Shown here: in pieces, positions 3 through 2,868 of the stretch
Numbering within the stretch: the stretch's first letter is position 1
Layout: every line of letters starts with the position of its first letter
From: Pseudonocardiaceae bacterium
Lineage (GTDB): Bacteria > Actinomycetota > Actinomycetes > Mycobacteriales > Pseudonocardiaceae
Length of the DNA: 7,001 nucleotides
Assembly (NCBI GenBank): GCA_025937115.1
Contig: JAICSB010000165.1
Coordinates: 1-7,001, forward strand
Direction of reading: 5' to 3'
Position numbers and translations under genes: made by a program
Notes under the pieces: model-generated
Seen by the model: the letters and a program-made list of their open reading frames with translations, nothing else
The model's database searches: none
What the model was told of the DNA's origin: nothing

Positions 3-1174
<1,172 letters not shown>

Positions 1175-1192
1175 CCCCCGCGTCCCCTCTGA

Positions 1193-1216
1193 TCGCCATT
1201 CGGAGCCGAATTGCGA
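1193..1216. repeat. Palindrome L1 (outer left copy)
   Basis: This is a near-perfect palindrome with arms of 11 bp around a central AG and one mismatch (1197/1212). It carries the 18-base core CGCCATTCGGAGCCGAAT at 1194-1211, shared by all four copies in this unit. Its outer 21 bases (1191-1211) are exactly repeated in inverted orientation at 2270-2290. It lies 19 bp after dapB and downstream of the minus-strand DUF559-like gene. Confidence 0.9.
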
Positions 1217-1234
1217 CGCTGACCGCTTGTAGAC

Positions 1235-1256
1235 CGCCATTCGGAGCCGAATTGCG
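1235..1256. repeat. Palindrome L2 (inner left copy)
   Basis: This is the second left copy, a direct repeat of L1 over 23 bases with a 41-bp offset (1235-1257 versus 1194-1216). It has 10-bp arms around AG with one mismatch (1238/1253). It ends 15 bp before the stop codon of the minus-strand gene. It could contribute to transcript termination or stability, but the two-base centre and lack of a T-tract make a classic intrinsic terminator unlikely. Confidence 0.9.
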
Positions 1257-1271
1257 ATATCGGCGACGCGA

Positions 1272-2136
1272 TTAGCTGCGTCGGGTGAGGGCGGCGCGGA
1301 CCATGTGGGCCGGGTCGTTGAGCAGCTGGGCGGTGACGAACACGATTTCCCAGCCTGCGGCTTGCACCCGGTTGAGCCGATCCCGGTCTCGATTGAGCGC
1401 CCACAGCTCGCCGTCCCGCCAGGAGCCGTCGTACTCCACCGCGACCTTGTGCTCTGGGAAAGCCAGGTCGGCGCGGGCGAGCCGACCGCTGCCGTCCTCG
1501 ATCCAGTACTGCGGCACGGGGTGCAGGCCGTCGAGCACAAGCCACACCCGGACCCGCGATTCCGGTCGAGACTCCGCCCTTGGATCGGCAAGCTCGATGG
1601 CGCGGCGGGCCAGCACGATGCCCTTGTCCGAGCGTCCCTCGACCATCCGGACGACCTGCGGCAATGCCACCAACCCGGCCCGCAGCACGGCATCGAGGTC
1701 GGCGACGGCATCCGGCAGCGGCCGGTCGAGCAACAGATCGAGCGTGGTCCGCAGCGGGGTTGCGACGGCAACCTCCGACCACGGTGTGCACTCGTGGGGT
1801 CGGACGGCGGTTCGCCGCACGTTCAGCCCAGCGCGCCGGGCAATGCGAGTGCTGTCCGGGACCACGACCTGCACGCAATCTTCAGCGCGGGCCAACTGCA
1901 CACCCCACAGACCAGCCGCCGACTTGCCGGTGATCACAGTCTCAGGTGGTAGCGCGAGTGCTGCGGCTGCGCAGCGCAAGTCGTGCGACAGCGGCTCGCT
2001 GCGGTGTGCGTAAACGCCCTGGAACAGCCGCCGCACTGTCTCCGCGCAACTGGCTGCGGGTCAGCGCACCCATGACTACCGCGTCAGTGCCCTTGAAAAC
2101 CGGTGCGGGATCCCTGAGTTTGATCTCTTTGGCCAT
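1272..2136 (-). pseudogene. DUF559 / AbiEi-antitoxin-like protein with Vsr-like nuclease C-terminus, apparently frameshifted near its N-terminus
   Basis: The main frame (GTG at 2036 to TAA at 1272) encodes 254 residues with the layout of actinobacterial 'AbiEi-family antitoxin / endonuclease domain' proteins. It starts VRRLFQGVYAHR, has a middle domain with TGKSAAGLWG (36-45) and TPLRTTLDLLLDRP (93-106), and ends in a DUF559/Vsr-like PD-(D/E)XK domain. E159, D190 (RADLAF), E201 in VEYDG and a trailing RDRDRLNRVQAAGW helix are candidate active-site parts. That frame is closed upstream by TGA at 2061-2063. The missing N-terminus lies in another frame: from ATG 2136, MAKEIKLRDPAPVFKGTD continues through LTRSQLRGD, the expected lead-in to RRLFQGVY. 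Joining them needs a +1 shift at about 2037-2040. It may be a broken gene, a sequencing error, or a shorter protein starting at 2036. An in-frame ATG at 2157 is an alternative upstream start. The activity is not established; the family includes antitoxin regulators and putative nucleases. Confidence 0.75.
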
Positions 2137-2178
2137 AGCCGGCAACTGTGCCGCCATCCGCCGAATCGATCAAACGCC

Positions 2179-2208
2179 CATCCACAGGCAAGCCAAGTTA
2201 TCCACAGG
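2179..2208. promoter_or_regulatory. Paired ATCCACAGG repeats including a consensus DnaA-box sequence
   Basis: ATCCACAGG occurs at 2180-2188 and again at 2200-2208, exactly 20 bp apart. The second copy lies within TTATCCACA (2198-2206), a perfect match to the DnaA box consensus; the first reads CCATCCACA. On the minus strand these are CCTGTGGAT repeats upstream of the DUF559-like gene starts (2136/2157). They could be operator or promoter elements of that gene. Two boxes without an AT-rich region do not make an origin. Confidence 0.45.
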
Positions 2209-2223
2209 AAGCCTGGGTCATTC

Positions 2224-2245
2224 CGTCATTCGGCTCCGAATGGCG
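2224..2245. repeat. Palindrome R1 (inner right copy)
   Basis: It has 10-bp arms around a central CT, with one G-T type mismatch (2226/2243). The 18-base core is present in reverse orientation at 2228-2245, relative to the left copies. It lies upstream of the DUF559-like gene, so it could act in its promoter region. Confidence 0.9.
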
Positions 2246-2261
2246 ACGGCCGGGGTGCTGT

Positions 2262-2291
2262 CGATCGCTATTCGGCTCCGAATGGCGATCG
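2262..2291. repeat. Palindrome R2 (outer right copy)
   Basis: This is the longest of the four palindromes: 14-bp arms (2262-2275 and 2278-2291) around a central CT, with a single T/G mismatch. The reversed core lies at 2270-2287, 42 bp from R1. Its outer 21 bases mirror those of L1, giving the unit perfect 21-bp terminal inverted repeats (1191-1211 and 2270-2290). No target-site duplication is evident outside them. It ends 13 bp beyond the stop of the GNAT gene and might also affect that transcript's 3' end. Confidence 0.92.
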
Positions 2292-2304: not shown

Positions 2305-2868
2305 TTAGGTGAGAGTGAGGTCTAGGGGGCCGGTTAGGCGGATTTCACGGAGCGCGCGGCCGGCGGCGTCGAGGGTGCGGATGGTGCCGTCGGGGTTCCA
2401 GCCGGCGCGCCGGTAGAAGCTCAGCGAGGCCGGGTCCTCGGCGGGCACCCAGGCGATTCCCCGAGTAGCTCCGGCGTCGCGTAGCACCGCCGCGACGGCA
2501 GCGAGCAAGCGGCCGCCGTGGCCTCGGCGTCCCCACCTGGGCTCTACCAGCAGGGTGCTCACCAGCACGGTCCGTGCCGCGTCAGGCGGCAACGCGCCAT
2601 CGGCAGCGGCCACGTCCTCCTCGGGCGCCGGACCGGCCACCACGAATCCGACCGGATCGTCGCCTTCGGTGGCGATCAACACCGTCGCCCCACCCTCGAG
2701 CGCGTCGGCCCAGACTTCCCGCAGGTGCGGTGCATCCAGCTCGTCGAGGGTGCCGGGCGGCAACAGCTCGGAGTAAGCGGCGCGCCAGGTGGCGGCATGC
2801 AGCGCGGCCAAGATGGGAACGTCCTCAGATGTCGCCGCGCGCACCCGAGCCACTGCCATACCACTCAC
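2305..2868 (-). CDS. GNAT-family N-acetyltransferase
   Basis: This is a single-domain GCN5-related acetyltransferase of 187 residues, expected to move an acetyl group from acetyl-CoA to an amine on an unidentified substrate. The N-terminus has the RAATSEDVPILAALHAATW pattern (10-28). Motif A is visible as VSTLLVEPRWGRRGHGGRLL (103-122), with the CoA pyrophosphate loop RRGHGG at 114-119. The C-terminal motif LSFYRRAGW (149-157) is typical of the fold. The longest start is the GTG at 2868; an ATG at 2859 removes only MSG and is equally credible, since neither has a strong ribosome-binding site. The gene diverges from the DNA glycosylase gene at 2930 and may share a control region with it. It reads toward the palindrome-bracketed gene on the same strand. 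The family is certain, the substrate unknown. Confidence 0.93.
   Translation of the reverse strand: MSGMAVARVRAATSEDVPILAALHAATWRAAYSELLPPGTLDELDAPHLREVWADALEGGATVLIATEGDDPVGFVVAGPAPEEDVAAADGALPPDAARTVLVSTLLVEPRWGRRGHGGRLLAAVAAVLRDAGATRGIAWVPAEDPASLSFYRRAGWNPDGTIRTLDAAGRALREIRLTGPLDLTLT

Follow-up and report, generated by a model that had tools for sequence, protein, structure and literature searches.

Whether a nuclease-like gene bracketed by pairs of short palindromes belongs with those palindromes, or has come to lie among them by accident, is the question raised by a locus in a 7,001-nucleotide stretch of DNA from a Pseudonocardiaceae bacterium (assembly GCA_025937115.1, contig JAICSB010000165.1; the whole stretch is called the window below). 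We think it probable that the locus belongs to a large actinobacterial class of units, each composed of a palindrome doublet, a nuclease gene and a second doublet, which resemble the REPtrons formed by repetitive extragenic palindromes (REPs) and REP-associated tyrosine transposases (RAYTs) and are built on an unrelated nuclease. The protein clades of this class own a short palindrome each. It occurs as doublets, spaced by 37 to 49 bp according to family, which flank the gene on either side and stand solo elsewhere in the genome.

The original prediction had placed four copies of an 18-base core, as two tandem pairs, around one DUF559/AbiEi-like gene, and this geometry stands. Exact cores lie at 1194-1211 and 1235-1252 on the plus strand (palindromes 1191..1216 and 1232..1257, cores 1 and 2) and at 2228-2245 and 2270-2287 on the minus strand (2221..2246 and 2263..2290, cores 3 and 4), while none of 200 shuffles gave a match. 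Start-to-start spacing is 41 bp in the left doublet (+,+), where core 1 forms the outer arm on the dapB side, and 42 bp in the right doublet (-,-), where core 3 lies on the gene-start side. Between the outer copies (1191-1211 and 2270-2290) the inverted repeat is indeed perfect over 21 bp, and lengthened to 26 bp it is 96% complementary. Each copy is palindromic as claimed, if imperfectly so (ATTCGG-NN-CCGAAT, with partial outer pairing). The inward orientation of the pairs is seen in the window and depends on a central AG/CT dinucleotide; this differs between window positions 2228-2241 and the orthologous third core of a related genome, G006 (relatives are numbered G001 to G012), making orientation an unstable mark. 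The enclosed minus-strand gene (1272..2157), AbiEi-like and Vsr-like and of DUF559 type, is present in a weaker form than claimed, being split over two open reading frames (ORFs; 1272-2036 and 1942-2157). Its orthologues in G001 and G002 are intact at 300 aa, and the frameshift, in the N-terminal part, is either real decay or an assembly error.

Two observations weigh against a tie between this gene and its palindrome, which we call F1 (ATTCGGAGCCGAAT, start-to-start 41/42 bp). Two F1 clusters fall within 1.1 kb of each other in 31-51% of random placements (40-55 clusters), a chance level at which this bracketed locus alone is not significant. Moreover, the F1 core, at up to two mismatches, stands beside none of the other DUF559 matches examined, two weaker matches there being chance-like, which led us to reject F1 as a general marker of DUF559 genes. 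For both reasons the link at first seemed to be chance, a view that was reversed when the flanks of the paralogues were compared with one another. The enrichment of palindromes beside DUF559 genes that had been anticipated thus fails for F1 itself and holds in another form, since other paralogues carry palindromes of their own on both sides.

Exact inverted 13-mers were common to both flanks in 14 of 30 DUF559 loci, some of these loci representing one place. Six further families were delineated, and across F1 to F7 there are mostly two palindrome copies on each side of the gene: F2 (GCAGTCTGCATCCAGAACGCG, start-to-start 42-44 bp), F3 (CCCCGATATGTCCCCATATCGGGG, 42-43 bp), F4 (CGGTCTCATGGATGCTTAAGCACC, 42 bp), F5 (CGCATTCAGCGGGCTCAGCGGGGT, 40 bp), F6 with a relative in G012 (GTGTCGTGAACTCGACACCA, 48-49 bp) and F7 (GGGAAGAATGAGCCGCG). 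At a score of 16, inverted repeats join the two flanks at 16 of 26 DUF559 places, as against 7 of 3160 random blocks drawn from stretches of G001, G002, G005 and G006. These places comprise 22 of the 26 from a first DUF559 search, where a contig-end place, two short ones and the second half of a gene were left out, and four from a wider search, from which about a dozen further weak matches were set aside. Repeats are missing at ten places: four belong to G008, two hold distant relatives, and at four the match is partial or frameshifted. Distinct copies away from genes, counted over 1.02 Mb of stretches, number 3 for F2, 4 for F3, 0 for F4, 18 for F5, 7 for F6 and 1 for F7, with reversed controls at 0 except for F7 (1); the raw counts for F2, F3, F5 and F6 (5, 6, 25 and 10) are inflated by overlapping stretches.

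In the protein tree, F1, F2, F3, F4 and F6 each correspond to one clade (support 99-100 / 97-100), F6b stands beside F6, and two rows are fragments. The F1, F2 and F3 units, as well as three of the four F6 units, occupy matching loci within their families, and flanks never match between families; the two F4 units and the F6 unit of G009 show no flank match. The genes mostly behave, then, in the manner of single-copy genes passed on vertically, as is described for RAYTs in PMC8049555. Units L244 (G010), L248 (G007) and L246 (G009) have a palindrome family in common and differing outer flanks, and are possibly units that have moved.

The same arrangement recurs at the level of the class. At E 1e-20 or better, a profile built from 12 proteins (A1) has matches in 184 of 296 class genomes, the matched proteins often being named only 'endonuclease domain-containing' or hypothetical. 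We examined the 29 loci returned beside that of G001 and 40 further listed places in nearly rank order (three at contig ends were skipped and two lower-ranked ones added), 61 of these 69 loci, from 31 genomes, having both flanks; they are non-independent, several of them sharing a genome or coming from closely related ones. At a flank-to-flank score of 20, 50 of the 61 loci are bracketed, compared with 1 of 122 pairings of a flank with a gene interior. Set against cross-locus pairs, a control inflated by related loci, 47 of the 61 lie above the 95th percentile, 31 of them also above the 99th. Hairpins at a score of 13 occur in 35 left flanks, 29 right flanks and both flanks of 20 loci, and in none of the 61 gene interiors. 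Among 168 genes called in 20 arbitrary 20-kb stretches from 12 of the survey genomes, 11 reach a score of 16 and only one reaches 20; that gene, found blind, is itself a DUF559 relative (phmmer 1e-13), and another relative there scores 16.2. The element common to L258, L267 and L279 is present in 18, 28 and 19 copies in their own three genomes and in 0-1 copies in eight others (reversed control 0-1). Among 30 loci returned for it, three (two genes) contain a DUF559 gene, and 19 of the 20 dispersed places examined are doublets in a 37-bp register.

F1 itself is dispersed through the genomes of one uncultured group of Pseudonocardiaceae, in keeping with the palindrome family suggested by the original prediction. 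A scan for the 18-mer over 84,980 species, one genome each, returned 68 stretches, all but two (one from an Acidimicrobiia bin and one from a Rhizobium bin) belonging to bins titled Pseudonocardiales, Pseudonocardiaceae or Streptosporangiaceae; compared with the window protein by tblastn, only the two stretches containing this locus gave a match. Counts of ATTCGGNNCCGAAT in G001 to G008 are 64, 45, 1, 12, 11, 13, 3 and 2 (reversed control 0). A longer form at up to two mismatches is present in 8 of 61 genomes (G001 and kin), reaching 94 copies in G001 and 68 in G002, the two richest (reversed control 1 and 0). In 80 stretches sampled around listed copies (39 from G001, 32 from G002, 7 from G006 and one each from G004 and G005), neighbouring cores less than 150 bp apart are spaced at 41 bp (33 intervals) or 42 bp (39) in 72 of 73 cases, independently of their relative orientation. 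The arms of these doublets are conserved and the middle of the spacer is not. The flank consensus of 74 doublets, which concerns the F1 family only, is approximately AGAC/GAYC, with GTAG absent. A hairpin in RNA or single-stranded DNA was rejected as the conserved feature, copies showing no compensatory pairing (2 nominal hits in 96 tests); no Rfam family matched, plasmids gave no match by DNA or protein, and the core was not found in viral contigs.

At 20 counted orthologous pairs of F1 sites (19 between G001 and G002 and one between G001 and G006, some poorly aligned; 26 were set up, four with long intervals being skipped and two window pairs kept outside the totals), identity is 94% for core letters, 81% for the spacer, 83% for variable core positions and 87% for the surroundings. 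Within genomes, 23 of 1091 doublet pairs share spacer similarity at a score of at least 6, where 2.8 or 5.5 were expected, and homology between similar doublets, judged by eye, fades past the arms; together these indicate that copying has involved the doublet as a unit. One site bears a whole doublet in G001 and, in degenerate form, in G005, whereas G002 has none there. A core triplet in G001 (L113) corresponds to pairs in G002 (L114) and in the window (1191-1257) that seemingly lack different units, so that arrays appear to gain and lose whole 41/42-bp units. The first 130 bases of L148 and L153, on two G001 contigs, share a doublet and its preceding bases and diverge right past the last arm, which looks like assembly or population branching at the doublet.

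The neighbours of the unit, dapB on the left (383..1174, plus strand) and a GNAT acetyltransferase gene on the right (2305..2868, minus strand), serve as synteny anchors for asking whether sites without the gene exist. The complete doublet-gene-doublet arrangement lies between them in the window, G002 and G006, and in G001 with the triplet on the dapB side. A single doublet occupies the gap in G003 (spacing 38) and G007, one core remains in G005, no full core is present in G004, the gap is bare in G009 and G011, and other sequence intervenes in G010 and G012. Gene-less sites had been expected if the unit is mobile, and such sites do exist in kin; they look more like losses than like sites preceding insertion. 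The locus tree, ((G009,G011),(G010,G007,G006),((G004,G003),(G005,(G002,(G001,window))))), with partly weak support, calls for at least three losses as against two gains at one site, and on this basis we favour loss of the gene as the probable origin of the gene-less sites. In G005 the left flank of the core is that of core 1 and its right flank that of core 3 (compared with the G002 copies, z 5.1 and 6.6), a pattern to be expected of recombination between doublets, although an insertion into one core would give the same appearance; among the gene-less sites of G003, G005 and G007, clean hybrid flanks are found only in G005. Shortened remnants of the nuclease gene with flanking palindromes kept (L074/L248, G007:C68; L073/L245, G003:C195) indicate that the palindromes outlast the gene. 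Beside the unit of G006 (L118, G006:C62) the GNAT gene matches over just 27 residues and seems degraded. In G012 (L123, G012:C352, 164-2848) about 2.6 kb of other sequence separates dapB from GNAT, with an F1-like core at the GNAT 3' end, and from this content the gap seems to be a variable site.

What the enclosed protein might do is suggested by its predicted structure. The window ORFs matched no Pfam family at 0.001; the intact protein gave MTES_1575 and DUF559 under the cut-off, and Vsr likewise, and a sequence search of the PDB with the protein returned no meaningful match. The protein does match an AbiEi sequence profile (PADLOC AbiEi), and the predicted model combines an N-terminal part of AbiEi-like fold with a domain (residues 197-299) resembling the catalytic fold of Vsr-type homing endonucleases such as I-Bth0305I. 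Compared with Vsr and I-Bth0305I, the putative nuclease is here fused to an AbiEi-like part and bracketed by palindromes. With AbiEi, the antitoxin of the AbiE type IV toxin-antitoxin systems, and with Rv2827c it has in common a similar N-terminal part and paired inverted repeats beside the gene, the doublet upstream being here a candidate binding site; it differs in the additional nuclease-like domain, in doublets that lie on both sides and are scattered through the genome, and in the window, where dapB and GNAT are the neighbours, no AbiEii (DUF1814) toxin gene adjoins it. The likeness to REPtrons (RAYT/TnpA-REP, a Y1 HUH protein with its REPs, BIMEs or REPINs) proposed in the original prediction extends to a gene bracketed by its cognate palindromes, clade-specific repeats, fixed-spacing doublets, dispersed intergenic copies and largely vertical inheritance of the gene. 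It ends at the protein, which is AbiEi-like and Vsr-like rather than Y1 HUH, at the palindrome foot, where F1 lacks GTAG (or CGTC), at the hairpin, for which no covariation was found, and at the F1 arms, which occur in any relative orientation.

Like AbiEi at its promoter, the AbiEi-like part most likely reads both arms of the doublet that belongs to it, and there the nuclease part would act. Repair or recombination could then copy doublets to new sites and keep them alike, and would sometimes remove the gene to leave a solo doublet. The original suggestion of palindromes kept up or dispersed by a DUF559 protein fits the bracketing, the cognate families, the dispersed copies and the gene-less sites, the part played by the protein being what we infer from sequence. 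The plainest rival makes the doublets operators only, bound by an AbiEi-type self-repressor with a decayed or unrelated nuclease-like domain, the dispersed doublets being further binding sites. This possibility, already raised with the original prediction as autoregulatory sites, keeps some plausibility: according to PMC3985639 and PMC7319586, AbiEi promoters contain paired inverted repeats to which the proteins themselves bind, two for AbiEi of S. agalactiae (11-mers N27 apart) and two pairs of 23-bp repeats for Rv2827c, a spacing close to that of most of the present families (37-44 bp). The AbiEi resemblance of the N-terminal part and the conservation of core over spacer (94% versus 81%) in the absence of stem covariation, as at a protein-bound site, point the same way. 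We nevertheless hold operators alone to be unlikely, because the 50 bracketed class loci have an element close behind the gene as well (downstream median 16.5 bp, measured from the edge of the profile match, compared with 52.5 bp upstream), because F1 is placed at gene 3' ends, and because doublets are duplicated and lost as units. In G001, 30 of 40 F1 clusters have a stop codon within 40 bp, as do 27 of 33 in G002, and convergent gaps are enriched (18/38 versus 14/142 neighbouring gaps in G001, p 1e-6; 16/29 versus 4/88 in G002, p 1e-8), with scarcity in divergent gaps being weak (3/38 versus 24/142 in G001, p 0.21; 1/29 versus 17/88 in G002, p 0.04); these gap statistics come from a home-made gene caller and stretches centred on copies.

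The same placement would suit bidirectional terminators or mRNA 3' end structures with no tie to a protein. We regard these as very improbable, given that compensatory pairing is absent, that spacing and sequence rather than structure are strict, that the class-level element is not likewise enriched in convergent gaps (5/20 versus 5/15), and that clade-specific bracketing would be left unexplained. Equally hard to credit is an ordinary REP-like repeat flanking the gene by chance with a spurious DUF559 link; this would account for F1 taken alone, and is countered by paralogues bracketed by their own palindromes far above controls across the class. True REPINs, spread by a Y1 transposase missed in incomplete genomes, would share the fixed-spacing doublets, the spacers less conserved than arms and the intergenic placement, as described in PMC3116915. 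This too we consider most doubtful, the consensus lacking the GTAG tag and the Y1 family PF01797 being found in none of the eight core-bearing genomes, which are possibly incomplete, and in 8 of the 61 genomes searched as kin of G001, all eight lacking the core.

In its fullest form, our explanation is an actinobacteria-wide, undescribed class in which a homing-endonuclease-type domain joined to an AbiEi-type operator-binding domain both disperses and homogenises its own operator doublets, the REP-RAYT arrangement having been invented independently, with very many clade-specific pairs of gene and palindrome; this we advance tentatively, at a little under even confidence. By analogy with REPtrons, such a system would be new in kind, and no description of a link between nuclease and palindrome doublet was found in the literature searched, whose coverage leaves out most subscription journals. 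Actinobacteria commonly encode such proteins, which occur in the majority of the class genomes surveyed. If each has its own doublet, the natural substrate for the family would be known at once and could be tested with short DNA. It would also follow that REP-like repeat populations can accompany a protein unrelated to RAYTs, that palindromes in actinobacterial intergenic DNA may be read in this light, and that an antitoxin-type reader of DNA has become linked to a homing-type nuclease.
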